From Bryobacteraceae bacterium (GTDB lineage Bacteria; Acidobacteriota; Terriglobia; Bryobacterales; Bryobacteraceae), in assembly GCA_029975915.1 (NCBI GenBank), contig JARKOC010000320.1:1-21019 (forward strand): 21,019 bases of DNA, given 5' to 3'. The notes below the pieces were generated by a model. The model was not told the DNA's origin. It ran no database searches and saw only the letters and a list, made by a program, of their open reading frames with translations. How positions within the stretch are numbered: the first letter of the stretch is position 1; each line of letters begins with the position of its first letter. Below are positions 4,569-19,706 of this stretch, piece after piece. The translations under genes were made by a program, and so were the position numbers.

Positions 4569-5342
4569 TCAGTCAAGGTCTACCAATCCGAGATGGATGG
4601 CGACTGCTACGGCCTGGGGCCTGTTTGTTACATTCAGTTTTTCCATGATGTTATAAACGTGGTAATTGACCGTGCGTTCGCTTATTCCCAGGATAACGGA
4701 GATATCCCAGGAGCTTTTTCCCCGCTTCAGCCAGTTGATGACTTCCTTTTCGCGCTCGGAAAGGACAGCGCGCGTTTCCGGCCGCGTATTGTTGAAGATA
4801 TGGGAAAGGGTCAGATGCAGGTGGGGAGTCAGGAGGTGAAGTATGGCTTCGGTGCGTTTCTCCTGCTTCACGGACGGGCTTGCAAAGCAGAACATGCTTC
4901 CGCAATTTCCCGGAATTGACGGGGCCGTGCCGTGGCAATAGGATTCCAGTACACCGAAATCCCTGTTCAGTGATTTGATTTCCCGCGGAACGTGGATGTT
5001 TTTCTGTTTGAAGTACGACCAGTGATTCAGTGTATAGGTCTTGAACGTTTCCTGCGTCGCCGCATCCAAATGGAAGTAACGATGGGACAGATATTCGTTG
5101 AGCCATTCTTGCGGAAAGCTGATATTGATTCCGTACGCCATGATAAAACCAATGCCGTCGTCGATGCGGCCCAGTATGGCGCCGGCGAAGTCAAACGGAA
5201 AAAGCGCCCGAATGCGGGAAATCACCCTGGAAAAATCCTCTTTAGTATTGCAGGACAGGTTTTCGTGGATGATTTCCAGGAGTGTTTTCGCATCGCCGCC
5301 GGAAAGGGAGGAAATCGATGTTGACGGTTCACGTAATGACAT
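4569..5342 (-). CDS. LuxR-family regulator with autoinducer-binding-like domain (LuxR solo)
   Basis: The 257-residue regulator has an N-terminal sensor of the autoinducer-binding type (about 20-180) and a C-terminal LuxR/FixJ helix-turn-helix (about 193-257: LSEREKEVINWL, then ILGISERTVNYHV and MEKLNVTNRPQAVA). Ligand-pocket landmarks of acyl-homoserine-lactone receptors are partly kept: W80 and Y84 in WLNEYL and D93 in HLDAA. However, the Pro that normally follows the Asp is Ala here, so the ligand may differ. No luxI synthase is visible, which makes it a LuxR solo within this window. The start ATG 5342 has only a weak GAGAG upstream. A near-consensus lux box sits just past its stop, pointing at the neighbouring ferredoxin-SCP2 and methyltransferase genes as the regulon. 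Confidence 0.88.
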   Translation of the reverse strand: MSLREPSTSISSLSGGDAKTLLEIIHENLSCNTKEDFSRVISRIRALFPFDFAGAILGRIDDGIGFIMAYGINISFPQEWLNEYLSHRYFHLDAATQETFKTYTLNHWSYFKQKNIHVPREIKSLNRDFGVLESYCHGTAPSIPGNCGSMFCFASPSVKQEKRTEAILHLLTPHLHLTLSHIFNNTRPETRAVLSEREKEVINWLKRGKSSWDISVILGISERTVNYHVYNIMEKLNVTNRPQAVAVAIHLGLVDLD

Positions 5343-5490: not shown

Positions 5491-5883
5491 TCACCCGATA
5501 CTCCTTTTTTGGGGCCGCGAAAGAAGATATTCTCTGAGTGCTACCGCTTGGTTGTGGTCGGCATCGCGAGCTGAATACAAAAGTGTCAGCCGGCATTTCT
5601 CCGTCTCATCGAGAAGCCGTTCCACTGCCTCTGGTTGAGCATCAAGCTCCGAGAAGTAGCGGCTCTTGAATTCCTCCCATTTCGACTGGTCGTGACCGAA
5701 CCACTTTCGCAGAGCCGTGCTCGGAGCCACATCCTTCAGCCACAAGTCAGCCTGAACCTGCTCTTTCGTCATGCCGCGCGGCCATACCCGGTCGACAAGG
5801 ACACGACAGCCGTCGCGCGGATTGGCGGGTTCGTATACCCGTTTCGTTCCAATGTCCGTGATTTCCGTCATCTGCCCATCCAT
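5491..5883 (-). CDS. DUF488 (YeaO-like) family protein, copy B
   Basis: This 130-residue paralogue of the gene at 1115-1492 has the same blocks in order: IGTKRVYEP, RVLVDRVWPRG, WLKDVAPS, LRKWFGHD and LTLLYSARD. Differences are scattered (for example DGC for DGF, and ERLLDETEKCR for AMLLDETAKGR), so both copies look intact and are drifting under constraint. Start ATG 5883 has a GAGG 8 bases upstream; a second in-frame ATG lies 4 codons in. The start overlaps by one base (TAATG) with a 25-codon ORF upstream. The function of the family is unknown. With copy A it forms direct repeats flanking the methyltransferase/ferredoxin/luxR module. Confidence 0.85.
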   Translation of the reverse strand: MDGQMTEITDIGTKRVYEPANPRDGCRVLVDRVWPRGMTKEQVQADLWLKDVAPSTALRKWFGHDQSKWEEFKSRYFSELDAQPEAVERLLDETEKCRLTLLYSARDADHNQAVALREYLLSRPQKRSIG

Positions 5884-6043
5884 TACCGCGCCTCACGGGC
5901 CGCGAGGCAACAAGCGGTCCTCGTGCAGGCGTTCATTACGGGGGCCGCCCGCGCTTTCATGTCGTGGCCTTGAGGGTAAACATCGCATCCAGCGCGGCTT
6001 GGAGCATCGCCTCGAACGCCGCGTCCCCCCACCCGCCGGTCAC
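5883..6043 (-). other. Two tiny overlapping ORFs between LprI-like gene and DUF488 copy B
   Basis: Going leftward on the minus strand, a GTG at 6043 (just after TAAGGA) opens a 28-codon frame (…WGDAAFEAMLQAALDAMFTL…) ending at 5957. Its TGA overlaps an ATG (ATGA) at 5960 that opens a 25-codon, cysteine-containing frame ending in TAA at 5883, which overlaps the DUF488 start. The head-to-tail chain suggests translational coupling or the remains of one frameshifted gene. Neither peptide is recognisable and chance is not excluded. Confidence 0.25.
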
Positions 6044-6047
6044 GTCC

Positions 6048-6482
6048 TTATTTCACCGGTAATGAGCCGGTGCATACATCACCTTCTTCCGTTCCAACCA
6101 GCCATCGTCGAAGTTGTTGCGTCCTCTGGCTCGTGAGCTTCTTCATCCAGTGCGCATAACACATCGGATACGCGGAACCATACGCTACCTGTTTTTCGGG
6201 ATCCGGGAAAATCGCCTCCAGTTCGGCATCCCGGAGTGAAATCCATGCCCGTTGCGCTGCTTTCAGGCGATCGAGAAACACGGGATCCTTAGCGTTTCGC
6301 TTCAGGATTTCCCTATAGACCCGATTCAGCTCATCATCTGCTTCTTTCAGCTCACGTGCCGCGCATTGGTTCAACTCGAACTGGTTGTTCGCCGTGTGGA
6401 AGCAGGAATTCTGTTTGGCTCCGAAGGCCGGGGTTGCGAAGGTAATAAGGAGAAGCGCCGCGAAAAGCCTTGTTGCCGTCAT
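6048..6482 (-). CDS. LprI-like (DUF1311) periplasmic protein
   Basis: The 144-residue exported protein has a signal peptide (MTATRLFAALLLITFATPAFGA, cut before KQNSC). The mature domain is typical of the lysozyme-inhibitor LprI N-terminal family: NQFELNQCAARELKEADDELNRVY, then LKAAQRAWISLRDAEL and a C-terminal CYAHWMKKLTSQR helix. Conserved cysteines (about 27, 40 and 108) are consistent with disulphide bonding in the periplasm. Some relatives inhibit lysozyme; here that activity is only a family-based guess. Start ATG 6482 has AGAGGA 6 to 7 bases upstream. It is separated by 166 bases from the FG-GAP lipoprotein gene upstream, so it may or may not share a transcript. Confidence 0.85.
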   Translation of the reverse strand: MTATRLFAALLLITFATPAFGAKQNSCFHTANNQFELNQCAARELKEADDELNRVYREILKRNAKDPVFLDRLKAAQRAWISLRDAELEAIFPDPEKQVAYGSAYPMCYAHWMKKLTSQRTQQLRRWLVGTEEGDVCTGSLPVK

Positions 6483-6648
6483 ATGAGATCCTCTCAGCTA
6501 CCGGTATCGGCCTGAATTCGGATCATCTTTACCGGCCTCCCGCCGGCACATTTTTCATAAAAACCGTGTGCAGGGATTCAGTTTCTCATCGTCATGATAT
6601 ATATCAATAGGGAATAACGCTTCACCCCATTCTGATTGCAACACGGTA

Positions 6649-8469
6649 TCAATTCCCGTTGGGAGCGCCCATGCGCAGGGGGCCGCCGCGGGCCGTCGTC
6701 CAGAGCAGGCATTTGCATCCGGAACCGGGGACCGTGAAGATATCCAGCCCGTGATCGAAGGTCTGTACCAGGATCTCCAGTTGTCCGTCGCCGTCCAGGT
6801 CGGCAATCGTGGGGGCGGCCGGTGCGCCGTTGCCGTTGCCGTTGGAGCCGGGATTGGGAAGGGATACGTCATGAAGCAATGCGCCGTTGGCCGTAAGGAT
6901 GATCAGGTGTCCGGAATCGAGGGCTTTCGGGTCGCCATAGGTGCTGAAGACCAGTTCGGGCGAACCGTCCTGATTCAAATCGGAGGCCGTGACCTCGGAG
7001 GCGAACATGATCGCCTTGCCATGGGTGTAGTTGTAGCGCCACAGACGGTTGCCCGCGGCGTCAAAGGCATGGACAAAGCCGTCGTTGAGGGAAACCACGA
7101 TTTCAGGCCTGGAATCACCCGAGATATTGATAGTGGTTGCGGCCGGCACTCCCCTGGGCGGATACCAGCCGTCGACACTGATGGGAGCGCCTCCCCGCGG
7201 CAGGGTTTCCCATCCGGCAAGTCGCATGGCGCTCCGTGAGCCGTCGCCGTATGCGCCCTCCAATACCATCAGGGCGTAAGCCTGTGTTTCGTAGGGTATG
7301 TTTTTCTCCACGTTGGGGACTCCCAGAACCTCGTTGCGGCCGTCGCCGTTCAGGTCCACCACGTTGGGCGGGGAGGCGGTCCATTGCAGCCACTCCTGCC
7401 CGGTTCCGGGATCTGGCCAATCCCCGGTGTTCAGGTGATAGTGGTTTTCTTCCACAGTCGGATCCGCCCAGCGAATGAACTGACCCCAGGCCAGACGCAT
7501 CCCCGCATAGCCGGAGGCCCGATTGGTAAACCACGGCGAGGCGTCGATGGCCTGCCCATCCATCTTGAACGCCTCGATGGTGTGATTGTCGTAGGTGACG
7601 ATGATTTCCAGGTTCGCATCGTCATCGATATTTCCGATCCCCACATTGAGGCCGTAGCACCCGTACCCGTGCAGACCGGCGCCGTTTCTGCCGACGTCGC
7701 CTCCCATCCCGGTTCGGGTATTGTATCGAGGCCAGGCCTGGTAGGTCACGTCTGCCGGCTGGAAGAGTGAGCCTTTTGCGGAGAAAACGAACACCTGCGC
7801 CCCCTCGGACCTGGTCTGGGTGGTGGTGGCGACTACCTCGATCCTGCCGTCACGATCGAGGTCGCCTGCCGCCAACCCCCGCACCTCCGGGGTCTGGCCG
7901 GCCGAGGTGGTGTCCGCCGGCCAGCCGTTCTTCACGGACAGTTTCCTGTTGCGCCATTCATAGGCATACACCTTGCCGCCCTGCCCGACGACAATCTCCC
8001 GAATTCCATCTCCTTCCAGGTCGGTCACCACATGGGGGGCATAGATGCGGCTGCCGTTGCCCGGGGCGCTGTCGAGAAGCTTTCCACCGGCGTCATGCAC
8101 ATACAGCGTATAATAGGCTGAAATCAGCTCTTTGGAGCCGTCGCCGTCCAGATCGGCCACGAGCGGTGAGGCAAACCAGCCGGTCTGACCCGACAGGTTG
8201 CGCATGAAAACGGGCCGTTGCACGGGGCCGCTGCTCTTCCCGGCCGCGCATACCGGCGTCACGAGACCACCGGTGGCTCCGTCCCCTCCTTCCGAGGAAG
8301 GAGTGTCGGCGCCTCCGCTGCCGCCGGTACTACCGTCGCTGCCGGTAGCGCCGCTATGTGCGCTGCCGCCGCCGTTACAACTACCGCTACCTCCTCCACC
8401 TCCTCCGCCGCAGCCGACTATCAGACTCATCAGGAAAATCACGATAACCTCTTTCAAATCTCTTCGCAT
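6649..8469 (-). CDS. FG-GAP/VCBS repeat lipoprotein
   Basis: This exported protein of 606 residues is predicted to be lipidated. A short N-terminus (MRRDLKEVIVIFLMSLIVGC) ends in a lipobox with Cys20, followed by a low-complexity Gly/Ser linker (about 20-68). The rest is a repeated beta-propeller: blades carry calcium-binding-type DLDGDG motifs (VADLDGDGSKEL, VTDLEGDGIREI, AAGDLDRDGRIEV, IGNIDDDANLEI, VVDLNGDGRNEV, ASDLNQDGSPEL, IADLDGDGQLEI). The frame is open to 8583, but ATG 8469 was chosen because GGGAGGG stands directly upstream and the lipoprotein signal begins there; the longer start would run into the riboswitch terminator. Such propellers mediate surface binding or adhesion. Regulation is by a promoter and a GEMM-I riboswitch immediately upstream, so it is expected to answer to a cyclic dinucleotide. 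Confidence 0.9.
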   Translation of the reverse strand: MRRDLKEVIVIFLMSLIVGCGGGGGGGSGSCNGGGSAHSGATGSDGSTGGSGGADTPSSEGGDGATGGLVTPVCAAGKSSGPVQRPVFMRNLSGQTGWFASPLVADLDGDGSKELISAYYTLYVHDAGGKLLDSAPGNGSRIYAPHVVTDLEGDGIREIVVGQGGKVYAYEWRNRKLSVKNGWPADTTSAGQTPEVRGLAAGDLDRDGRIEVVATTTQTRSEGAQVFVFSAKGSLFQPADVTYQAWPRYNTRTGMGGDVGRNGAGLHGYGCYGLNVGIGNIDDDANLEIIVTYDNHTIEAFKMDGQAIDASPWFTNRASGYAGMRLAWGQFIRWADPTVEENHYHLNTGDWPDPGTGQEWLQWTASPPNVVDLNGDGRNEVLGVPNVEKNIPYETQAYALMVLEGAYGDGSRSAMRLAGWETLPRGGAPISVDGWYPPRGVPAATTINISGDSRPEIVVSLNDGFVHAFDAAGNRLWRYNYTHGKAIMFASEVTASDLNQDGSPELVFSTYGDPKALDSGHLIILTANGALLHDVSLPNPGSNGNGNGAPAAPTIADLDGDGQLEILVQTFDHGLDIFTVPGSGCKCLLWTTARGGPLRMGAPNGN

Positions 8470-8540
8470 GGAACCCTCCCGATACGGTGACGACCTCTTG
8501 TCGTATTTTTCCCCCTTCGTCCACCGGTTCAGACCGCCGG

Positions 8541-8590
8541 AAACAGAACAGCCGGGGCTGAAATATGGATGATATTTCGGCAACCCGGCT
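8541..8590 (-). terminator. Riboswitch expression platform (conditional terminator hairpin)
   Basis: Reading the minus strand, AGCCGGG (8590-8584) pairs with CCCGGCT (8556-8550), and inside it GAAATAT (8578-8572) pairs with ATATTTC (8566-8560). The stem is followed by TGTTCTGTTT. The left arm is also part of the 3' half of the GEMM aptamer, so aptamer folding and terminator folding exclude each other. Ligand binding would then favour read-through (an ON switch), inferred from the geometry. Confidence 0.75.
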
Positions 8591-8662
8591 GTCTCGGCGA
8601 GACCCTGTAGGCTTTCCGCCCCATCCTCACGGATGGTTGAGTAGTATCGTCTATCCCATGGG
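8571..8662 (-). promoter_or_regulatory. GEMM-I cyclic-dinucleotide riboswitch aptamer (probable GEMM-Ib)
   Basis: The minus strand shows the GEMM-I pattern in order: CAACCATCC, a GTGA tetraloop, GGATGGGGCGGAAAGCC (P2 and its flank, 8640-8610), then a GTCTC-GCC-GAGAC hairpin (P3, 8603-8591), and the AGCCGGGTTGCCGAAA closing strand (8590-8575). Aligned to the Vibrio Vc2 aptamer, the base at the ligand-contacting position 20 reads A (…TACTCAACC against …GGGCAAACC). In the literature this marks the GEMM-Ib group that responds to 3',3'-cGAMP in Geobacter rather than c-di-GMP. Class membership is confident; the ligand is inferred from hand alignment. Confidence 0.9.
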
Positions 8663-10479: not shown

Positions 10480-12177
10480 TCAGCCTTCACCATCATAGCC
10501 GCCTCTGCGCTCATGGAGCATCCGTCCGGAAAAAACCCCGCTCCATTCTGGATTCCGGTGCATGGCCCGCGGTTTCACGTCCCCCAGCCTTTGGCCGAGT
10601 TCCGTGCACCTCCGCAGATAGGATTCCCGGCCGTTCGCAGCGATGCGGAATACGCGTAACGGCGCCAGTTGCCCCAGGTCGCGGCAGTAGCGGTAGTGGT
10701 AATTCTCTCCGAGCAGGCCGTCCATCGCTTCCCCCATGCGGGCCAGTGCGTCGTCGGCCGCGTCCGGAGCTTCCACATAGATCACATAGGCGGGCGGGGT
10801 CTGCTCGTCGAAGGCGAGCATGTCAAAGGTGGGGTGTAATCCGGTCTGTTGCGCGGCTTTCCGGAGCGCTTGGCAGACGTGCTCTTCGTGAAGCTTCTCG
10901 CCGAAGCGGTCCGAGATGAAGTCGGCCTTGCCGACAAAGCGCAGCAGCGGCGTCCCGCGATGGAAACCCGTGACCCGCACCAGGTCGTGGAGACGGTAGC
11001 GGTACAGCCCGCCAGCGGTGGTGACCGCCAGGGAATAGGTTTTCCCGGCTTCGAGCTGGTGGAGCAGCCGTGCCTCTCCCCCGTCATGGGGGAGAAATTC
11101 GAAGAAGTGGGAGCGGATGGCGGGGAGGCAACCGTCAAGGCCGGTCAGCGGCAGGGTGGCGAAGCATTCGGTGGCGAGCAGACCCTTGCCCTGGACCACG
11201 GCGTGGGGGAATAGGCGTTCCAGATCCTCAGCCGGTCCGGCGGCGGCCGCATCCCGCCAGCAGCTGACCAGCCGCAGGCGGGGCCAGATGGCACGGTGAA
11301 CGTCTCCGGGTGAGGCATTGCCGGAAAAGGCTTGTCTGATTTCAACGGCGCGGGCTGTGTCAGACCGGTTGAGCCGTCCCAGTCGTTCCGCCAGGGACGG
11401 TTCCAGGGTCGCGGGGGGCGTCAGGGTCCCTGCGGCCACATCGTCGGCTAGTTGTGGCCACCAGCGCAGCAGATGGTCGCAGAGGATGGTCAGGAACGTG
11501 GGATTCCAGACCGAGACCAGGGTCAACCGGCGGCTGCGCATCAGGAACAGGAGCGTGATGTACCAGAAGCTCTCCATGTCGCGGATCAGCTTGACTTCCG
11601 GCGGAACCGCCTGCGCCGAGCGGACCAGCCATCCCTTGAATCCTCCCAGGTACTCGCTGTCGTCCTCGAAGCCAACCGGTATGCCGCCGCCGGTTCTTTC
11701 CGGTTTCCGGGCAGCAGGGGTGATCGACCAGTAGCTCCGGCCGGTAATCAGCGAGGGAAAGGCGAGGTACAGGTCGGCGATCCAGGGGGCGATTCCCCGC
11801 TGGAACTGGCTTTTGAGCCCTTCGGTATAGGGTATCAGCTTGGAAGCGGCGGCCGAGCCGCTGGTAGGCTCCAGCAGAAGAACCGGATCAGCAGTCAGTA
11901 TGCCCGGTTCTCCGGCGGCGATCCTGCCGATGTACGGCTCGAAATCCCTGTAGTCGGCCAGGGGCGCCGCTGCCTGGTACTCCCTGGGGGTACGGATGGC
12001 GGCGAAGCCGTGGAGACGTCCGTATTCGGTGTCTGCGTTCCGTCGGAGTATGTCCCGCAGCGCCGCCCACTGCGAGGCCTCGCACCTGCCGAGGTCCCGG
12101 TGGAAACGCCATGCTTCGGGCAGGGTGGAAAGGAACCAGAGGCCGTTTGCGATGGCGCTCCTGAGCAGTCCTATCAT
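10480..12177 (-). CDS. GH3-family (auxin-responsive promoter type) acyl-amide synthetase
   Basis: The 565-residue protein belongs to the GH3 family within the adenylating (ANL-like) superfamily. Plant members activate a carboxylic acid as acyl-AMP and join it to an amino acid; bacterial members are mostly uncharacterised. The family marks are LEPTSGSAAASKLIPYT (ATP-binding loop, about 102-118), SSYWSITPA-like GRSYWSITPA, EYLGGFKGW, a SVWNPTFL helix, YFEF-like FFEFLPHDGG and AGGLYRYRLHDLVRVTGF, where an Asp typically contacts ATP ribose. The last quarter (KLHEEHVCQAL onwards) is the mobile C-terminal lid. The ATG start overlaps the stop of the GNAT-like gene upstream (ATGA, 12174-12177), showing translational coupling. 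It is the last gene of the radical SAM operon, so it may conjugate an acid made by those enzymes; the substrate is unknown. Confidence 0.85.
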   Translation of the reverse strand: MIGLLRSAIANGLWFLSTLPEAWRFHRDLGRCEASQWAALRDILRRNADTEYGRLHGFAAIRTPREYQAAAPLADYRDFEPYIGRIAAGEPGILTADPVLLLEPTSGSAAASKLIPYTEGLKSQFQRGIAPWIADLYLAFPSLITGRSYWSITPAARKPERTGGGIPVGFEDDSEYLGGFKGWLVRSAQAVPPEVKLIRDMESFWYITLLFLMRSRRLTLVSVWNPTFLTILCDHLLRWWPQLADDVAAGTLTPPATLEPSLAERLGRLNRSDTARAVEIRQAFSGNASPGDVHRAIWPRLRLVSCWRDAAAAGPAEDLERLFPHAVVQGKGLLATECFATLPLTGLDGCLPAIRSHFFEFLPHDGGEARLLHQLEAGKTYSLAVTTAGGLYRYRLHDLVRVTGFHRGTPLLRFVGKADFISDRFGEKLHEEHVCQALRKAAQQTGLHPTFDMLAFDEQTPPAYVIYVEAPDAADDALARMGEAMDGLLGENYHYRYCRDLGQLAPLRVFRIAANGRESYLRRCTELGQRLGDVKPRAMHRNPEWSGVFSGRMLHERRGGYDGEG

Positions 12178-12968
12178 TCTTCTCCCCGCTTCAGGCCGAG
12201 CATCCTCCTGCCGGCCGGGGTCAGGTTGCGGAGATCCACTTCGGTCAGGCAGACCAGTTCATCCCCGTGCAGGTGGCCGGAATTGGCCTTTTGAAAGAAA
12301 GCGACGTGGGGGTCTTTCAGGCGCTGCTCCGTCACATCCGCCACTCCGGCCTTGAGAGGCGTCGGTTCCTTCAGGCGCACCACGCCGCTTTCCGCGTCGT
12401 ATTCGTGGGGAAACTTGCGGGACGCCAGACGGTCCATGATGCGGCGTACGCCAGACGGGCACGGGCGTTCACGGCAGGGATGGAAGGTCCTGAAAAATAC
12501 CGGCAGGAACCGGTAGGTCTTGTATCCCGAGCTGATGAGGAACCAGTACACCGCACGGTCTTTGATCCCCTCCGCCAGATGGAAGAAGAGTCTGCCCAGG
12601 AGGCGTGGAAGGAGGGTTTCCCGCCGGAAATCATGGCTGACCACCGTGTCGCCGGAAAAGAAGGCCGTCACCGGCCTCCCGTCGATCTCTTCTTCCAGAC
12701 GCATCAGGGTGGAAAATCCGCGCAGCGCGCCGCCGTCCATCTCGTGGAGGAGGGCCACCCATTCCTTTTCGGAAAGGTCCGCTTCGAAATGTTCCGGCCG
12801 GACATTATCATAGTACCTCTCCATGAGCCGGAACATGGCGCCCCGATCCCCATCGCTCAGTTCCCGCACCGGCCTGACGGTCCCACGGAGGCGACCCTCG
12901 ATGAGCGGTCCCGGCAGGTCAGAGCACGGCGAGTTCCACATGGCTGATGCGTGAGTCAAGGCGGTCAT
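12174..12968 (-). CDS. Divergent GNAT-like hypothetical protein
   Basis: This 264-residue cytoplasmic protein has no clear named family. The pattern is GNAT-like: VRELSDGDRGAMFRLMERYY at the N-terminus, FFSGDTVVSHDFRRETLLPRLLGRLFFHL (about 100-128) in the place of the acetyl-CoA-binding strand-loop-helix, and YWFLISSGYKTYRFLPVFF afterwards. The usual RxxGxG/A pyrophosphate loop is not obvious, so it may use another acyl donor or be non-catalytic. ATG 12968 overlaps the end of the previous gene by 50 bases and has GGGAG 8 bases upstream; ATG 12941 is an alternative start. The stop overlaps the GH3 start. Lying between another GNAT-like protein and GH3, it is probably a pathway-specific acyltransferase or amino-acid-handling protein. 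Confidence 0.65.
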   Translation of the reverse strand: MTALTHASAMWNSPCSDLPGPLIEGRLRGTVRPVRELSDGDRGAMFRLMERYYDNVRPEHFEADLSEKEWVALLHEMDGGALRGFSTLMRLEEEIDGRPVTAFFSGDTVVSHDFRRETLLPRLLGRLFFHLAEGIKDRAVYWFLISSGYKTYRFLPVFFRTFHPCRERPCPSGVRRIMDRLASRKFPHEYDAESGVVRLKEPTPLKAGVADVTEQRLKDPHVAFFQKANSGHLHGDELVCLTEVDLRNLTPAGRRMLGLKRGEE

Positions 12969-14031
12969 GAAATTCGCTCCCGTCGTCCCAGCCGACCGTA
13001 TAGAGTCTGCTGGTATAGTCTATATGGGGATAGCGGCGCGCCGCTTTCAGGAAGGGGTCATGCTCGGCCATGCCGAGCATGAGAAACCCTTGGCCCCGTC
13101 TGTGGGTCGATTGTATCACCTGCCGCAGCAGGAGGTCGAATACCACGGGTTCATTGTCCGCGATACAGGTAAAAGCGGCGTAGCCCATGGAAATGGCCTC
13201 TCCCGGCCGGGGAAGGGGCCGAAATCCCCGCAGGCGGGCATACAGGTCGTACAGGGGCCGCCCCCGGCGAAGAAACCCGCCATAGACGTGAACCACCGAC
13301 TGCTTGAAGGAGGACTGGTCCCAAAGGCCCATGACGCCTGCAATGCGGCCGCGCCGCAGGGCAACCAGGAAGTCAGACGGCCGGAAACCCCTTGTCCGCG
13401 CGGCTTCCGGCGCGAAGTCCGCGACCGCGCATACCGGGAAAAACTGCCGCCGCGCCCCGCACCGGTTGAGGAATTCGACCATGTCGTCCAGGTGGATTCC
13501 ATTGCCGTCGCGCACTTCGAACCCTGCCGGGATCATCGCTTCAATCCGCCGCGCATGCAGGGCCAGGGTGTGGATGCGGGCCAGCGGCCGATAGACCGGG
13601 AAATGGCGTCTCGCCCTGTTCACCAGCACCCCTTCCGCTTCCCGGTTTCCCTCGATAATGGTGGTCAGGTATCCCCTGGTCCGCCGGTCTTCGTGCAGCT
13701 CCCTGAGGAAGCGGAATCCCCCCGAAACCAGCCATCGGGAGCGGAAGCGGCGGTCCACCCGCAGCTGCCCCAGGTAGCCGACGGTCTCCTCCCGGCCGTT
13801 GATGAACAGCCGTCGCAGGGATCGGCCCGCCAGGGCGGCGATGTCGCCGCTCGGCAGGCGCCGGGCCACCAGGGTCTGGTGGAGATCGCCCATCACATCG
13901 CAGCCGTGGAAGTAGGAGGGAGAGCGCTCGTATCTCACCGAGACGCTGCCCGGCACCGGGTTCTCCCGCAGGAGCCGCAGGATCGCCTCATCGTCGTCGG
14001 GCGTGGCAAGGTCGAAGGTGAATTCGGTCAT
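12919..14031 (-). CDS. GNAT-family N-acetyltransferase-like protein, probably two GNAT modules
   Basis: The 370-residue protein starts like a GNAT enzyme (FTFDLATPDDDEAILRLLRE), followed by GYLGQLRVDRRFRSRWLVSG (about 94-113), which occupies the position of motif A although the CoA loop is degenerate. A block YLTTIIEGNREAEGVLV…FPVYRPLARIHTLAL closes a first module near residue 160. The second half repeats the theme (FLVALRRGRIAGVMGLWDQ, then YAAFTCIADNEPVVFDLLLRQVIQSTHRRGQGFLMLGM), so a tandem GNAT architecture like that of Fem or N-acyl-amino-acid enzymes is plausible. The start is ATG 14031, with only a weak ribosome site. It lies 63 bases after the first radical SAM gene, with a GC hairpin in the gap, and overlaps the next gene by 50 bases. 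Confidence 0.75.
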   Translation of the reverse strand: MTEFTFDLATPDDDEAILRLLRENPVPGSVSVRYERSPSYFHGCDVMGDLHQTLVARRLPSGDIAALAGRSLRRLFINGREETVGYLGQLRVDRRFRSRWLVSGGFRFLRELHEDRRTRGYLTTIIEGNREAEGVLVNRARRHFPVYRPLARIHTLALHARRIEAMIPAGFEVRDGNGIHLDDMVEFLNRCGARRQFFPVCAVADFAPEAARTRGFRPSDFLVALRRGRIAGVMGLWDQSSFKQSVVHVYGGFLRRGRPLYDLYARLRGFRPLPRPGEAISMGYAAFTCIADNEPVVFDLLLRQVIQSTHRRGQGFLMLGMAEHDPFLKAARRYPHIDYTSRLYTVGWDDGSEFHDRLDSRISHVELAVL

Positions 14032-14050
14032 AGGCGCTCGGAATTATTTT

Positions 14051-14067
14051 CCCCCAGGGGAAGGGGG
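14051..14067. repeat. GC hairpin inside the radical SAM/GNAT operon gap
   Basis: CCCCC (14051-14055) pairs with GGGGG (14063-14067) in the only non-overlapping gap between genes of this operon (14032-14094). In the transcript sense it is followed by AAAATAATT, not a U-tract, so it is not a classical terminator. It may tune mRNA processing or relative expression of the downstream genes. Confidence 0.35.
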
Positions 14068-14094
14068 ACTTCAAAAACCTTGATAATATCCAAA

Positions 14095-15459
14095 TTACAG
14101 AGACAGGCTATCTGCGTCCGGCAACGGCTCAGTGAACCCCTCGTCCCCCAGCGGATACTCTCTCCGCTGCCGCGCCTCGCGCCGCATCAGGAGGTTGATC
14201 AGGAAGAAGTGGAACCCCATGAAAGCGGTGCGACTGTTGACCCTGAAGTCCAGGCCCCGGCGCAGGATGGAGCGCAGACCGAAGAAACGGCGGCGGGCTG
14301 CCGAGCACCGTTCTTCCAGCTCGCCAGCGGAAATGCCCTCCGGCGCGAACGGCAGCATGCCGTAGCGGTACCCGGGATCGAGCCACCAGCGGTCGAAGAG
14401 AAGGCGGCCCTCCTCTTCCAGCCGCAGGTAGAGGGGAGTTCCCGGAAAAGGGGTGAGATGGTTGAAGGCGGTGAGGAAAAAGCGGTGGGCCTCGGCAAAT
14501 GTCGCTGTCCTGTCCACCGTTTCCGCCGTGTCGCTCCCGTACCCGAAGACAAAGGTCACGTAGAGCCGGATACCAAAGCGGCGCAGGTTGGAGAGCGCGG
14601 CCTCGTAGGTCCCGAAGGGGGTGACGAAGCCTTTTCCCATGGTCTCCAGGGTTTCCCGGTCAAGGCTTTCCAGACCGATGAGGAGCCCCTGGCAGCCGCT
14701 TTGCGCCAGCAATCCCAGCAGTTCATCGTCAAAGGCCGCGCCGATCCCGGCCTGGCCGACCCACTTGATCTTCAGGGGAATCAGCGCCAGGAGCAGGTCC
14801 CGCGCCTCTTCCGGGTCCGCAACGATATTGTCGTCCACGAAAAAGACCAGCGGCTTGTCGATGCGGGACAGTTCCGCGACCACTTCGTCGACGGGACGGC
14901 GGCGGCGGGTGCGCCGGAAAAAGGTCTGGATGGCGCAGAACTCGCACGGGTACGGGCAACCGCGTCCGGTCTCCACCAGCGCCACCGGGAGATAGTTTCT
15001 GCCCTCGAAGATGGAGCGGTCCGGCGCGCACCCCGCCAGGGAAGGAAGGGATTCGTGGCGATAGAAGCGGGCCGGCCGGTTACGGCGGAAATCGTCGATC
15101 ACCCGCGGCCAGAGCCCTTCCGCCTCGCCGATTACCACTGCGTCGGCGTATTCGGCCACTTCGTCCGGCGCCAGCGTGGCATGAAATCCTCCCATGACCA
15201 CCGGCGCCCCCCGCTTCCGGTATTCCGAGGCAATCTGGTAAGAGCGCCTGGCGGTATAGGTCTCCACCGTAATCGCCACCAGGTCGGTGGGGTCGTCAAA
15301 GGGAATCACCTCCATGCGGTCGTCATGGAATCTGATCTCCACGTCATCCGGGGTCAGCGCCGCCAGTACCGCCGGGGCGAGCGGCTCCATCTGCCAGGAG
15401 CGGATGTAGGGTTCGCCTGTGCGGCGTCCCATGCAGGGCTGGATGATGGTTAGCCTCAC
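14095..15459 (-). CDS. B12-binding radical SAM protein (paralogue 1)
   Basis: The 454-residue enzyme has an N-terminal cobalamin-binding Rossmann domain (about 1-130: LTIIQPCMG, MEPLAPAVLAALTP, VVMGGFHATL, AVVIGEAEGLWP). A radical SAM TIM barrel follows, with the [4Fe-4S] motif CxxxCxxC at C168/C172/C175. VFFVDDNIV, GLLIGLESLD and FVFGYGSDTAETV are further typical blocks. The C-terminus (PFPGTPLYLRLEEEGRLLFDRWWLDPGYRYG and onwards) resembles extensions of lipid-acting relatives. Such enzymes make methyl-, C-C- or ring-forming changes on unactivated carbons; the substrate here is unknown. The GTG start overlaps the stop of the preceding gene (GTGA, 15456-15459). The protein is close to paralogues 3 and 4. 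Confidence 0.9.
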   Translation of the reverse strand: MRLTIIQPCMGRRTGEPYIRSWQMEPLAPAVLAALTPDDVEIRFHDDRMEVIPFDDPTDLVAITVETYTARRSYQIASEYRKRGAPVVMGGFHATLAPDEVAEYADAVVIGEAEGLWPRVIDDFRRNRPARFYRHESLPSLAGCAPDRSIFEGRNYLPVALVETGRGCPYPCEFCAIQTFFRRTRRRRPVDEVVAELSRIDKPLVFFVDDNIVADPEEARDLLLALIPLKIKWVGQAGIGAAFDDELLGLLAQSGCQGLLIGLESLDRETLETMGKGFVTPFGTYEAALSNLRRFGIRLYVTFVFGYGSDTAETVDRTATFAEAHRFFLTAFNHLTPFPGTPLYLRLEEEGRLLFDRWWLDPGYRYGMLPFAPEGISAGELEERCSAARRRFFGLRSILRRGLDFRVNSRTAFMGFHFFLINLLMRREARQRREYPLGDEGFTEPLPDADSLSL

Positions 15460-16841
15460 GGGCGTGCCTCCGCCGGGACCCGGCCGCGGTACCAGCGTTC
15501 ATCGGGCGGCGTACCGGGATTGTCCAGGGAAAAGGGATGGGCGAAGCGCTGTTCGCTGTACAGACGGCGCACGAAGATGCGGTAGGTGAGGTTGCCGACG
15601 AAGTTGATGAGGGAGTTGGTGGAGAGCCCCCGCATGCGCCGGGCAGCATGGCCGATGCGGAAGGTCTCCCGGTACGCCCGTTTGAAGCCCCGGTACAGTT
15701 CCTCCGGGGTCATGAGCGCCGGTTGGATGACCACGTGCATGGTGTCGTAGTCGTCCCAGTTGTAGCTGAGGATCCTCCCCTCCGCCTGAAGGCGCCGGAA
15801 CAGCTCGGTTCCGGGATAGGGGGTATAGATGGAGTAACGGGGGATATCGATCTTCAGTTCGTTGACCCGATCCACGGTCCGCGGGAAGGTCTCCGCGGTG
15901 TCGTGATCGAACCCGAACACAAAACACCCCTGAACGCTGATCCCCATGCCGTGCATGGCGCGGATGAGCTCATCGTAATTCACCGGCGTGTTGAATCCCT
16001 TCCTGATCTCCTTCAGGACGGTCCGGCTGTCGGACTCGAAGCCGAACAGGAGGTAGCGGCAGCCGCTGGCCTTCATCAGGTCCAGCAGCTCCGGGTCGTT
16101 GACGATATCCACCGTGGCAAGGCCCCCCCATTTCTTCCCCAGGGGTATCATGGCCCGGAACAACTCCTTGGCGTACTCCGGATCCTCTGCGATGCTCACG
16201 TCGTTGAAGACGATGTATCTCCCCCGGGTCAGCCTGATGTCGCGGATCACGTCTCCCACCGGCCTGCGGAGATAGTTGGGCCAGACACCGGGCACGGTGC
16301 AGAAGTCGCACACCTTCTTGCAGCCCCGCGTCGCCTGGATGGTGTCGGGGATCATGTAGCCCGAACGCCGGTGCAGGTCGCGGCGGGGAGGCGGCACGCC
16401 GGGCAGCGTGTCAAGAAGGGGCTCTTCCTCGTAGACTCTTTTCATGCGTCCCGCGCGGAAGTCCTCGATGAGCCGGGGCCAAGCATCCTCTCCCCGGCCG
16501 ATGACAATGGCGTCGGCGTGGCGGATCGCCTCCCCCGGCAGGAGGGTGACATGCACGCCCCCCAGGACCACCGGGATGCCCCTCGCCCGGAAACGATCGG
16601 CCAGGGCGTAGCCGCTGTTTGCGCAGCCGGTAATAAGACTGATGGCCACCAGGTCGGCATCCGCGTCGAGCGGGATCGGGTCCACGCTGCCGTCCACCAG
16701 ACGGATATCCATGTCCGGGTATGCCGGGGTCAGGGCCGCCAGGGTGCAGATGGAGAGCGGCATCTCCCTCATGGAGCGGACCAGGGGGCCGAGCCTCAGC
16801 TTGTGCATGTGCGCGTCCGGCATGATGAGCAGCAGCTTCAC
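15456..16841 (-). CDS. B12-binding radical SAM protein (paralogue 2, divergent)
   Basis: The 461-residue member has the same layout but differs more than the other three. The cobalamin domain reads MPLSICTLAALTP with VVLGGVHVTLLPGEA (about 91-105). The cluster motif is RGCKKVCDFC (C174/C178/C181). Later blocks are IVFNDVSIAEDPEYAKELF, where a VDDN motif is replaced by NDVS, LLFGFESDS, GCFVFGFDHDTAETF and YTPYPGTELF. The C-terminal RWWL segment shared by the others is replaced by SYNWDDYDTMHVVIQP. It likely does a different chemical step on the same pathway. The GTG start overlaps the preceding stop (GTGA, 16838-16841), and its own stop overlaps the next start in the same way. Confidence 0.9.
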   Translation of the reverse strand: MKLLLIMPDAHMHKLRLGPLVRSMREMPLSICTLAALTPAYPDMDIRLVDGSVDPIPLDADADLVAISLITGCANSGYALADRFRARGIPVVLGGVHVTLLPGEAIRHADAIVIGRGEDAWPRLIEDFRAGRMKRVYEEEPLLDTLPGVPPPRRDLHRRSGYMIPDTIQATRGCKKVCDFCTVPGVWPNYLRRPVGDVIRDIRLTRGRYIVFNDVSIAEDPEYAKELFRAMIPLGKKWGGLATVDIVNDPELLDLMKASGCRYLLFGFESDSRTVLKEIRKGFNTPVNYDELIRAMHGMGISVQGCFVFGFDHDTAETFPRTVDRVNELKIDIPRYSIYTPYPGTELFRRLQAEGRILSYNWDDYDTMHVVIQPALMTPEELYRGFKRAYRETFRIGHAARRMRGLSTNSLINFVGNLTYRIFVRRLYSEQRFAHPFSLDNPGTPPDERWYRGRVPAEARP

Positions 16842-18211
16842 AGGCGGTTCTCCGTTTTATATTCGCGCTTCCGTTCGAATCCCCGATACCCCAGCATCAT
16901 GCCGTGCTTCTTCATCATCTCGCTCCGGAACAGCGGGTTGTAGGCGAAGTAGGTCAGCAGGCTCCGCAAATCCTTGGCATTGGTCTTGAAATCCGTGGCG
17001 CGGCGAAGGATCTGGTACGGTGAACTGTGCCTCATGCGGGCCACGTGGCCGAGCCCGGAAAGCCTCTCAGGGGTCAGGCGCCGGGGCCGGAAGGCTGCGT
17101 CACCGAAGCGGTACTCGTCATGGAGCCACCAGCGGCCGTCATACAAGAGCCTCCCTTCGGCCTTCATCCTCTCATAAAACGCCGTGCCAGGATAGGGGGT
17201 GAGGATGTTGAAGGCCGAAAAGGCGAACTTCTTGGACAGCGCCCAGTCGATGGTGTCGAGGATGCTCGCCTCGGTTTCGTGGTCATAGCCCAGAAGGAAC
17301 GCGGCCCACAGCATGATGCCCGCGTCCCGTATCCTCTCCACCGCCTCGTCGTAGGTTCCGAACGCCAGGTTGGTCATTTTGTTCATTATGGCCAGGTTGG
17401 CCGGATCCCGCGACTCGAACCCCACCACCAGCCCGGCGCAGCCGCTGCGCGCCATCAGGTCCAACAGTTCCGGGTCGGCCGCGAAATTGAGGCTCGTCTG
17501 GGCCGTCCAGCGCAGCTTCAGGGGGACCAGTTCACGGAACAGGGCCTTGGCCGCCTCCGCATCGGCGATGATGTTGTCGTCCACGAAGAAAACCAGCTTC
17601 CGCCCGTCCCGGGCCACTTCATCAGCAACCTCCTTTGGGGAGCGACAGCTGAAGCCGCCGCGGTACAGGTTGCCGGTAACGCAGTATTCGCAGGTATTGA
17701 CGCATCCCCTGGAAAGCTGGGTAAGCATGACCGGCAGATACTTCTTCCCCTGATAGATGTCGCGGCGCGGCTGTATTGGCCCGGAAGCGCCGGTGTCAGC
17801 GAAGGGGCGGCGGTACACGGGTTTCAGTCTTCCGGCTTCGGCGTCCTCAAGGATGTCCGTCCATCCGTCATCGATGTCCCCCATCGCCAGCGCGTCCGCA
17901 TGAAGGGCGGCCTCCTGCGGGATCATGGTGGCGTGGCACCCGCCAAGCGCCACCTTCGCGCCCACCTCCCGGAAGCGGTCGGCGATTTCGTAGGCCCTGC
18001 GCGCGGTATAGATTTCCGTATTGATGGCAACCATATCCCAGTGTTCGCCGTAGGGGACCGGCTCGAACCGGTCGTCGCAGAGCGAGACCCGGTGGCGATT
18101 CGGAGTGAACCCGGCCAGCACGGCGAAGGTGTGGGGTTCCATCCTGCCGTGGTCGTTGTACGGCCGCCCCCGGACCAGCCCCATGTTGGGCTTGACGAAG
18201 AGGATCTTCAC
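16838..18211 (-). CDS. B12-binding radical SAM protein (paralogue 3)
   Basis: This 457-residue protein starts at GTG 18211, directly overlapping the upstream stop (GTGA). The frame stays open to 18454, but that part is shadow of the previous gene, and the family N-terminus (KILFVKPNMG) starts here. The cobalamin-binding domain has MEPHTFAVLAGFTP and ALGGCHATMIPQEA. The radical SAM cysteines are C170/C174/C177 (RGCVNTCEYC), followed by LVFFVDDNIIADAE and GLVVGFESRD. Its C-terminus shares PGTAFYERMKAEGRLLYDGRWWL with paralogues 1 and 4 but has a longer tail rich in aromatic and basic residues (TYFAYNPLFRSEMMKK), perhaps for membrane contact. Confidence 0.9.
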   Translation of the reverse strand: MKILFVKPNMGLVRGRPYNDHGRMEPHTFAVLAGFTPNRHRVSLCDDRFEPVPYGEHWDMVAINTEIYTARRAYEIADRFREVGAKVALGGCHATMIPQEAALHADALAMGDIDDGWTDILEDAEAGRLKPVYRRPFADTGASGPIQPRRDIYQGKKYLPVMLTQLSRGCVNTCEYCVTGNLYRGGFSCRSPKEVADEVARDGRKLVFFVDDNIIADAEAAKALFRELVPLKLRWTAQTSLNFAADPELLDLMARSGCAGLVVGFESRDPANLAIMNKMTNLAFGTYDEAVERIRDAGIMLWAAFLLGYDHETEASILDTIDWALSKKFAFSAFNILTPYPGTAFYERMKAEGRLLYDGRWWLHDEYRFGDAAFRPRRLTPERLSGLGHVARMRHSSPYQILRRATDFKTNAKDLRSLLTYFAYNPLFRSEMMKKHGMMLGYRGFERKREYKTENRL

Positions 18212-19512
18212 CGCGCCGCCCCCCGTAGACGGGACTTGGCCCGGATATCCATCCCGGAAACGAGATTCGCCTTCAGAAACACGGCCAGATTGTCCAGACT
18301 GCCGAAATGGGCGCGGGAGGGGAGCCGGCGGATGATTCCCGGCAGGCTGTGAAAGCTCTCCCGTGCCCTGCGGCACCCCTCGGTGAGCTGGCCGGCGCTC
18401 ATGCCGCGGGGATGGAGGAGGGCCTCCTGCCACCGGTAGGACGGCTCCAGCCACCAGCGGTCATACACCAGGCGTCCTTCCCCGGAAAGCCGCTCGTAGA
18501 GCGGTGTGCCCGGTATGGGCTGGAGCGGGTTGAAGTTGGCGAGGCACAGTTTCTGCCGCAGGGCGAACTCCAGGGTACGCTCGATGGCGCCGGGCCCATC
18601 GTTGTCATAGCCGAACAGGAACGTGCCGTAGACCATGATGCCGGCAGTGCGGATGCGGCCGAGGCGCGATGCGAATTCAGAGGCGCGGTTCCACCCCTTG
18701 CCCATCTGCCGGAGGTTGTCACTGTCCAGCGATTCGAATCCGATGATCAGGCTCTGGCAACCGCTCAGCCGCGCCAGGGCCAGCAGCCCCGGATCGTCGG
18801 CGATGCCCGCGTCCATCTGGGCGGACCAGCGCACTTTCAGCGGCAGCAGGGCCTCCATCAGGGAGCGGAGCGCATCGCGGTCCGACATCATGTTGTCGTC
18901 CACAAACAGGATCCTCCGGCTGCGGCACGACTCGATCTCTTCCACCACCGCGGCCACGGGCCTGTGCCGTACCCGGCCGCCGTAAAACGCCCGAATGGAA
19001 CAGAATTCACAGGAGCGCGGGCATCCCCTGGCGAACTGCACCGGGCGGATGGGGAGGTAGTTCCTCCCTTCGTAGATGGAACGGTCAGGCTGAGCAGCCT
19101 CCGAGGGGCCGGGTGTTGCCGGGGCATAGAGACGTCGGAGCCTGCCGGACGCCGCATCGGCCAGGACCCGGGGCCAACTCGCCTCCGCGTCCCCCGTGAC
19201 AACGGCGTCCGCATGTTTCAGCGCCTCCTCCGGGAGCAGGGTCGGATGGAAGCCCCCCATCACGACCGGTACGCCCCGCTTCCGGTAGTCGGCGGCTATC
19301 TCGTAGGCCCGCCTGGCGGAAAAGGTGCAGGCGGAGATGGAGGCCAGGTCGGCCGTGTCGTCATGGGGGTTTTCTCCCAGGCGCTCGTCAACGGCCCGGA
19401 CCTCGTGTTCCTTTGGCGTAAGAGCGGCAAGAACGGCCAGCGCCAGCGGTTCCATAATGGCCGGAGAACGGTATCCCTCGCTGGAGCGGGGACGAATCAG
19501 GGTGATTTTCAT
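18208..19512 (-). CDS. B12-binding radical SAM protein (paralogue 4, first gene of operon)
   Basis: The 434-residue protein leads the seven-gene operon. ATG 19512 was chosen over the longer frame (to 19545) because GGGAGG is 7 bases upstream and the homologous N-terminus (MKITLIRPRS) begins there. The cobalamin domain contains MEPLALAVLAALTP and VVMGGFHPTLLPEEA. The radical SAM motif is RGCPRSCEFC (C164/C168/C171), with LFVDDNMMSDRDA and LIIGFESLDSDN after it. The C-terminus has PIPGTPLYERLSGEGRLVYD and RWWLEPSYRW. The close kinship of paralogues 1, 3 and 4 suggests successive tandem duplications. A promoter candidate lies at 19569-19597. Confidence 0.9.
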   Translation of the reverse strand: MKITLIRPRSSEGYRSPAIMEPLALAVLAALTPKEHEVRAVDERLGENPHDDTADLASISACTFSARRAYEIAADYRKRGVPVVMGGFHPTLLPEEALKHADAVVTGDAEASWPRVLADAASGRLRRLYAPATPGPSEAAQPDRSIYEGRNYLPIRPVQFARGCPRSCEFCSIRAFYGGRVRHRPVAAVVEEIESCRSRRILFVDDNMMSDRDALRSLMEALLPLKVRWSAQMDAGIADDPGLLALARLSGCQSLIIGFESLDSDNLRQMGKGWNRASEFASRLGRIRTAGIMVYGTFLFGYDNDGPGAIERTLEFALRQKLCLANFNPLQPIPGTPLYERLSGEGRLVYDRWWLEPSYRWQEALLHPRGMSAGQLTEGCRRARESFHSLPGIIRRLPSRAHFGSLDNLAVFLKANLVSGMDIRAKSRLRGAAR

Positions 19513-19568
19513 GGAACCGCCTCCCTGTTCCGGGTAAAAAAACAATAATCAATCAGGATTCACGGGCT

Positions 19569-19597
19569 GTTATTGCACTTCTTCCATGCCGTGTCAA
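19569..19597 (-). promoter_or_regulatory. Candidate promoter of the radical SAM operon
   Basis: On the minus strand TTGACA (19597-19592), a 17-base spacer and AATAAC (19574-19569) form a -35/-10 pair with a perfect first hexamer and 4 of 6 matches in the second. Transcription would start near 19562, about 50 bases before the ATG. It is back to back with the lexA promoter, 50 bases away. Confidence 0.5.
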
Positions 19598-19646
19598 CGG
19601 GGTATAACGGCGGCGCCCCGAATTTCGCGACGGGCGCGGGCACGCC

Positions 19647-19675
19647 TTGACATTCCCTGTCACGGCTGGTATGTT
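19647..19675 (+). promoter_or_regulatory. lexA promoter
   Basis: TTGACA (19647-19652), a 17-base spacer and TATGTT (19670-19675) form a good sigma-70 promoter. The -10 element overlaps the LexA operator at 19673-19688, so repressor binding would block polymerase. Confidence 0.7.
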
Positions 19676-19688
19676 GTCTTTTGACAAC
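19673..19688. promoter_or_regulatory. LexA operator (SOS box)
   Basis: GTTGTC-TTTT-GACAAC is a perfect 6+6 palindrome overlapping the -10 region of lexA. It fits most of the Geobacter LexA motif reported as GGTT-N2-C-N4-G-N3-ACC (the outermost bases differ) and not the E. coli CTGT-N8-ACAG form. Autoregulation of lexA and the dinB cassette is the natural reading. Confidence 0.75.
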
Positions 19689-19706
19689 TAACAGTGAGGT
19701 GTCCCC

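Follow-up and report, generated by a model that had tools for sequence, protein, structure and literature searches.

A candidate pathway for a fatty-acid-derived amide, encoded around a tandem GNAT and a GH3 protein in distant bacterial phyla

The 21,019-nucleotide stretch analyzed here (the window; contig JARKOC010000320.1 of assembly GCA_029975915.1, whose positions serve as coordinates throughout) carries a seven-gene operon for four radical S-adenosylmethionine (SAM) proteins (RS1 to RS4), two GNAT proteins (GN1 and GN2), and a GH3-family protein. On balance, we favor a reading in which the operon encodes, in a form that needs no oxygen, an undescribed pathway that yields an amide derived from a fatty acid and that has spread across distant phyla. 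A search of the open-access literature returned no description of this gene set, in agreement with the original prediction for this DNA, which knew of no described system of the kind. The dedicated pathway proposed in that prediction, its role for GH3 by family, its GNAT folds, and its expectation of conserved neighborhoods are supported, whereas its argument for a lipid substrate is weak and the four radical SAM genes are not the defining core. The seven genes are as follows.

RS1, 18208-19512, minus strand: predicted B12-type radical SAM protein, 434 amino acids; read as part of an optional module
RS2, 16838-18211, minus strand: predicted B12-type radical SAM protein, 457 amino acids; read as part of an optional module
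RS3, 15456-16841, minus strand: predicted B12-type radical SAM protein, 461 amino acids; read as core
RS4, 14095-15459, minus strand: predicted B12-type radical SAM protein, 454 amino acids; read as core
GN1, 12919-14031, minus strand: tandem GNAT with an N-myristoyltransferase (NMT)-like fold and a fixed C-terminus, 370 amino acids; core and marker gene
GN2, 12174-12968, minus strand: single-domain GNAT with a conserved SGDT, 264 amino acids; core
GH3, 10480-12177, minus strand: acyl-acid amido synthetase family protein of a cluster-specific clade, 565 amino acids; core

All seven frames are open from start to stop in the list of open reading frames (ORFs), so the predicted single-strand set between 10480 and 19512 is confirmed. 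The junctions from RS1 to GH3 in gene order measure -4, -4, -4, +63, -50, and -4 bases, in line with the original description of three GTGA overlaps, one overlap of 50 bases, and a final ATGA overlap; the sole gap inside the operon is the 63 bases between RS4 and GN1. Several GN2 homologs begin about 30 residues later in the alignment, which makes the GN2 start doubtful, so the 50-base overlap may be shorter.

The gene order of this operon is conserved to a greater degree than expected by chance. Including the window, 53 loci were scored with hidden Markov models (HMMs) built in this analysis, on ORFs from a simple six-frame finder. As all of them were located via GN1, the counts describe GN1 neighborhoods rather than all GH3 or radical SAM genes; they are lower bounds because some contigs end inside the cluster, and the loci are not independent because some are close relatives. 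The near-identical pairs L007/L118, L077/L078, L092/L093, and L115/L116 are counted within the 53, and the counts leave aside L001, L008, L009, L011, L012, L122, L124 (the second GN1 of genome G002), the short loci L013 to L076, and L123. GN2 is present in 40 of the 53 loci, GH3 in 38, and both in 37; B12-type RS genes, from one to four in number, accompany GN1 in 26. The commonest order, RS-RS-GN1-GN2-GH3, recurs in 11 of the 53 loci, and the fuller arrangement with four RS genes ahead of GN1-GN2-GH3 is found in three, namely, the window, a Patescibacteria metagenome-assembled genome (MAG; L003), and a verrucomicrobial locus (L111). The original prediction would have been undermined by the lack of a conserved neighborhood in relatives; instead, the conserved order is seen in these 11 loci and the core in six phyla: the host group, Myxococcota, Planctomycetota, Verrucomicrobiota, Patescibacteria, and Pseudomonadota. 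The first GN1 scan of genome contigs gave 12 loci, nine of them with GN2 and GH3, and L001 (a 4.7-kb contig) with GN2 alone. Profile searches find GN1 relatives in six further phyla: across the genome samples, GN1 matches occur in 15 of 282 from the phylum of G001, 20 of 246 Planctomycetota, 2 of 286 Patescibacteria, 8 of 194 Verrucomicrobiota, 4 of 299 Pseudomonadota, 2 of 198 Actinomycetota, and 11 of 188 Myxococcota (the phylum of G002), the last sample sharing genomes with that for the phylum of G001. The Actinomycetota locus scored (L121) has neither GN2 nor GH3, so the core is seen in six phyla, not seven. This distribution probably reflects horizontal transfer of the pathway between distant phyla. 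Multigene biosynthetic clusters are rare in Patescibacteria; the cluster is present in two of their genomes, of about 1.0 and 1.3 Mb (L003, 3253-12538, and L110), where L003 has four RS genes and L110 two.

The GH3 protein belongs to a clade specific to this context. All three domains of the family exceed the Pfam cut-off (23.6 bits): the N-terminal domain PF03321 at 168, the middle domain GH3_M (PF23571) at 69.9, and the C-terminal domain GH3_C (PF23572) at 42.4 bits, which bears out the predicted acid-activating, amide-forming synthetase as far as family membership goes. Motif I of the nucleotide-binding site in GH3 proteins has the form SG-S/T...K and motif III the form YR..D; in the window protein they read TSGSAAASK and YRYRLHDLVRVTGF, respectively. 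A search for PF03321-family proteins covered 149 Planctomycetota, of which 48 gave a match, and 140 Verrucomicrobiota, of which 13 did. The 43 short GH3 loci fall into three levels on the cluster GH3 HMM, at about 580 bits and more (the cluster type), 276 to 383, and 76 to 132, and among them only the cluster type is adjoined by GN1 or GN2. In L147 and L150, a cluster-type GH3 lacks GN1 and GN2 within the short stretch, and the respective genomes (G309 and G409) have GN1 on another contig. In a quick version of the GH3 tree (69 rows, one row of fewer than 420 residues having been dropped), all 39 cluster-type proteins lie on one side of a branch with an SH-aLRT support of 100.

Neither GN1 nor GN2 has a Pfam family of its own, and confident structure models bear out the prediction of two GNAT-like proteins, with a single GNAT domain in GN2 and a tandem GNAT in GN1, the two domains of which lie in one chain with the NMT architecture. 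The position of the GN1 C-terminal carboxylate is fixed in 53 of 53 loci; in alignment A7, which covers 50 of them (without L079, L116, and L118), all 50 rows reach the last column. The strict pattern WDQSSFKQ, tried as a GN1 signature, fits only 12 of the 53 loci; better marks are provided by the C-terminus, N129, and P274. GN1 differs from eukaryotic NMT in its identity of about 10%, in the extra N-terminal region of the latter, in the lack of a clear sequence match, and in being a bacterial protein of a biosynthetic operon. The VIA listing for GN1 displays no non-NMT entry against which a margin over other tandem GNATs could be gauged. GN1 relatives number 410 among 7,995 scored candidates, and the names given among the best 120 of the 410 are "hypothetical" or plain GNAT/acetyltransferase, with Chloroflexota and one Gemmatimonadetes MAG appearing by name. 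The GN2 profile matches 4,434 of the 7,995 at an E value of 1e-3 or better, and among the 120 matches listed no named row says more than hypothetical; GN2 probably also works outside this cluster. Past the SGDT strand of GN2, the acyl-CoA pyrophosphate loop [Q/R]xxGx[G/A] was not seen by eye in alignment A2, a reading made without a formal test.

The four radical SAM proteins share 35 to 48% pairwise identity, RS1 and RS4 being the closest (48%) and RS3 the most distant. The CxxxCxxC motif predicted for each of them is there in all four (RS1, CPRSCEFC at 164; RS2, CVNTCEYC at 170; RS3, CKKVCDFC at 174; RS4, CPYPCEFC at 168), none of the 58 RS tree rows is reported without it, and Pfam Radical_SAM is over its cut-off in RS1. 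The claim that each keeps a cobalamin-type N-terminal domain stands in part: the Pfam B12-binding model is over its cut-off in RS1 and RS3 and slightly under it in RS4 (31.2 versus 32.1), whereas in RS2 it gives no match at an E value of 1e-3 or better. RS2 aligns with the other three across 389 to 445 residues, and the motif DxHxxG is found in none of the four. In a 58-row tree of RS proteins from the scored loci, an RS3 side of 25 rows is separated from an RS4/RS1/RS2 side of 33 with 100/100 support. RS1 groups with L094_7651 and L111_5000 (100/98), RS2 with L094_6254 and L111_6346 (100/99), and RS3 with L111_44, its closest row (99/88). The loci of the RS1 and RS2 orthologs, one verrucomicrobial (L111) and one planctomycete, also contain RS3-side and RS4-side members, which argues that RS1 and RS2 are not recent local duplicates; the four RS genes of L003 are divided equally between the RS3 and RS4 sides. 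We regard RS3 and RS4 as the putative core pair, with RS1 and RS2 an optional addition common to three lineages; on this view the defining core is RS3, RS4, GN1, GN2, and GH3 rather than the four radical SAM genes. Radical SAM genes of another kind (cluster c15) occur in L114 (6000-8875), L005, L098, and L111 to L113. Both the L114 gene at 6000-7319 and that of L005 have a region in common with tetraether synthase (Tes) and TrsS, with scores well short of the cut-offs; L114 has neither the RS nor the Rieske module described below and has two such genes, one of them weakly Tes-like.

A second set of loci encodes a Rieske oxygenase and no radical SAM protein of the RS type. The type in question, here Rieske6, is closer to the oxygenase of L006 than to that of L007; it is present in 14 of the 53 loci and never together with RS genes: the 14 lack them, and the 26 RS loci lack this oxygenase (Fisher P of 1.2e-5, uncorrected for relatedness). 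On the GN1 tree, which covers 50 of the 53 loci (L084, L107, and L117, all with RS genes, fell under the coverage limit), the RS label needs four changes, three of them forced by well-supported branches. The Rieske loci L092/L093 and L097 fall within the half of this tree that holds all RS rows; in L092/L093 the Rieske gene lies about 5 to 6 kb from GN1 on the other strand, so the link is looser there. An FG-GAP-type protein is encoded in 10 of the 14 Rieske6 loci but is absent from all 26 RS loci, and six of those 10 match the NQR2/RnfD-like N-terminal part of the L006 protein, which could possibly act as an electron donor. This NQR2/RnfD-like protein is found in L006 (2633-5356), L081, L083, L092, L093, and L104, and in L006 it is fused to FG-GAP and UnbV_ASPIC. 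The enzyme families involved suggest that the Rieske version depends on oxygen.

Taken together, the family chemistry of GH3 and the resemblance of GN1 to NMT, an N-acyltransferase whose fold accommodates a long acyl-CoA, suggest that the product is an amide of a fatty acid. In the scheme that we propose, GH3 would adenylate a free carboxylic acid with ATP and join it to an amine or amino acid. The N-terminal domain of GN1, judging from its fold, would take a fatty acyl group from an acyl thioester, and the C-terminal domain would hold the amine acceptor, with the protein's own C-terminal carboxylate, fixed as it is, as the likely base. GN2 may carry out a second acyl transfer or hand over an intermediate. 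RS3 and RS4 would functionalize unactivated acyl carbons, by methylation or by BchE-like oxidation or cyclization, RS1 and RS2 would add two further steps in some lineages, and in other bacteria a Rieske oxygenase would stand in for the RS enzymes. Accessory genes among the 53 loci (fatty acid desaturase, 14; SnoaL-like, 9; AurF-like, 6; hexapeptide, 6; PAP2, 6; alpha/beta-hydrolase [ABH], 3) suggest further editing of the product. In three Pseudomonadota loci, exporter-type genes follow GN1: Pfam identifies HlyD in both L010 and L119, where RND or MFS partners were noticed by eye, and L120 shows the L010 pattern by clustering. The product is thus probably exported there.

The most serious competitor is that the operon makes a structural membrane lipid, either a modified amino lipid or one of ladderane-, hopanoid-, or tetraether-like type, the RS enzymes editing its hydrocarbon part; we consider this unlikely, though deserving of real weight. 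OlsH of Singulisphaera acidiphila is a GH3 enzyme that forms an N-acyl amino acid, the N-acyl ornithine of a membrane lipid, from free fatty acid and ATP (PMC12493201). As in the present operon, it is encoded beside an acyltransferase; here, in contrast, the partners are GNAT and radical SAM proteins, with no alpha/beta-hydrolase and no N-methyltransferase, and the alpha/beta-hydrolase OlsI is not among the seven operon genes or the ten flanking proteins scanned. OlsH-like GH3s form a separate group on the quick tree: L156 scores 371 bits on the OlsH model (NF052613) against 50 for the window protein, whose membership is rejected at the cut-off of 620. The desaturase, PAP2, hexapeptide, and AurF-like genes counted above would suit a lipid, as would the Tes-like region of the L005 and L114 radical SAM proteins (123 and 93 bits against a cut-off of 450). 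Yet none of the RS proteins scores above the cut-off of any model for a lipid-acting enzyme. HpnJ, BchE, HpnR, PhpK, and TIGR04072 (ladderane) share a superfamily with RS1 to RS4 and are among their best NCBIfam matches, but the scores are 35 to 104 bits against cut-offs of 360 to 650. RS3 lies nearest to HpnJ (104 bits) and BchE (92 bits), both far under the cut-off, and membership was rejected for HpnJ (best RS 104 versus 577.6), HpnR (58 versus 650), the ladderane model (76 versus 360), and, on its NCBIfam cut-off, BchE. With a best score of 104 bits against 578, the original argument for a lipid substrate from the C-terminal extensions of the RS proteins is weak; the better case for a fatty-acyl substrate would be the NMT-like model fold of GN1 with its fixed C-terminus. 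Planctomycete clusters for type II fatty acid synthesis (FASII) resemble this operon in having radical SAM enzymes proposed to remodel an acyl chain, but they differ in their acyl carrier proteins (ACPs), SAM methyltransferases, and phytoene-desaturase-like enzymes, none of which is in the core here; inspection of the gene lists by eye, with no search aimed at them, revealed no ACP or ketosynthase. The exporter-type genes are at least as consistent with the secretion of a small molecule as with a membrane lipid, and we rate a small acyl-amide metabolite above the latter.

Two further explanations were considered. That GN1 acylates a peptide in the manner of NMT or NpuN, with the RS proteins modifying that peptide, is improbable. 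B12-type radical SAM proteins are indeed common in pathways for ribosomally synthesized and posttranslationally modified peptides (RiPPs). Moreover, NpuN, a bacterial GNAT of the selidamides (lipidated RiPPs) that transfers fatty acyl groups and acylates a lanthipeptide, is like GN1 a tandem GNAT of a biosynthetic cluster according to the published model (PMC13060382). The present operon, however, encodes neither a peptide precursor nor a lanthionine synthetase, in a comparison by description rather than by sequence. The 63-base gap leaves no room for a precursor gene inside the operon; no search for one covered the 194 bases ahead of RS1 or other places. Further, we know of no role for GH3 in RiPP pathways. 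The chances are, if anything, slightly poorer that, as in plants, the acid conjugated by GH3 is small and aromatic or hormone-like, with the GNATs acting on the conjugate and no fatty acid involved. The ten PDB matches of GH3 are all plant-type indole-acetate, jasmonate, or benzoate amido synthetases (E values of 1e-29 to 1e-17), but plant enzymes are the only GH3 structures matched, so these hits say little of the substrate, while the fold of GN1 points to long acyl chains and some loci have desaturase and PAP2 neighbors.

Several observations weigh against the oxygen-independent acyl-amide pathway that we favor and against the kinship of GN1 with NMT. Both GN2 and GH3 are missing from 12 of the 53 GN1 loci, 13 have neither RS nor Rieske6 genes (some contigs being short in either case), and GH3 is missing in four of the 26 RS loci (L077, L078, L094, and L079, the last on a 7.8-kb contig). 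A second Rieske type accompanies RS genes in five loci (L007, L099, L106, L107, and L118, with L107 weak), which also carry SnoaL-like and desaturase genes, so Rieske chemistry may occur there too. COX1 is over its cut-off in four of four Rieske6 genomes but also in two of four RS genomes, too few to prove an aerobic/anaerobic split. Cobalamin binding by the RS proteins is a prediction, and the PDB entry that the RS3 and RS4 profiles both match best is 6fd2 (AprD4), an enzyme not known to need cobalamin. GN1 itself lacks the N-terminal NMT region, as residue 1 of the model aligns with residue 153 of human NMT1 and nothing precedes it, and the window protein has no match to Pfam NMT or NMT_C. 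NMT_C is matched by one of 65 and two of 50 GN1 proteins (best E values of 0.0031 and 0.0037) and NMT by one of 50 relatives (E value of 0.14), many fewer than are matched by general GNAT families. In a profile search of the PDB, the first NMT (E value of 0.45) is outranked by 31 sequences of other GNATs or unrelated proteins, the GN1 A3 profile recovered no N-myristoyltransferase, and the tandem GNAT 7q3a is almost equal in Foldseek score.

A wider reading joins these strands, and we advance it tentatively, with the balance of probability against it. GN1 would found a bacterial lineage of NMT-type acyltransferases that use the C-terminal carboxylate in small-molecule biosynthesis, perhaps representing the bacterial origin of eukaryotic NMT. 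Around GN1 there would be a new acyl-amide class made in two interchangeable forms: an oxygen-independent form with B12-type radical SAM proteins and an oxygen-dependent form with a Rieske oxygenase, the latter often beside an FG-GAP membrane protein, one part of which is NQR2/RnfD-like at some of the loci and may donate electrons.

The operon is flanked upstream by a divergent lexA and downstream by a YkuD/M15 cell-wall gene. Of 1,899 LexA relatives, the 120 listed include 11 with an organism name, and nine of these belong to the Geobacter group (Geobacter, Geomonas, Geotalea, Geomobilimonas, and Geobacteraceae), which by this gene makes an uncultured member or relative of that group the most likely host. 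The region between RS1 and lexA likely holds the operon promoter; its sole sigma-70-like match is on the plus strand and points to lexA.

RS1-lexA intergenic region, 19513-19706, no strand: divergent region of 194 bases before RS1

Elsewhere in the window, a c-di-GMP-I (GEMM) riboswitch (8576-8652, minus strand, 39.9 bits) overlaps the TTG listed as the start codon of an FG-GAP gene (6649-8583), so that translation of this gene probably begins further in; the gene was rejected as a relative of the FG-GAP protein of the Rieske loci, with no match at 1e-8. A LuxR-type regulator (4569-5342, minus strand), with Autoind_bind over its cut-off, lies about 5 kb from the operon, and a tie between them was likewise rejected, as no relative was found at an E value of 1e-3 among the ORFs of the other 52 loci. 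Two DUF488 genes (1115-1561 and 5491-5883, minus strand), about 4 kb apart, both belong to the "inactive N3" subclade and are closely similar by eye.

These findings define what appears to be a biosynthetic route in at least six phyla, with two core proteins that have no Pfam family of their own, and the GN1-GN2-GH3 core provides a genetic handle by which the product could be sought in bacteria that can be cultured, Moritella among them. Should the swap of radical SAM for Rieske enzymes around one core prove genuine, oxygen-free and oxygen-using chemistry could be compared cleanly on a single substrate. Likewise, if GN1 uses its C-terminal carboxylate, it would be a bacterial counterpart of a device reported to be unique to NMT and would bear on the origin of NMT.

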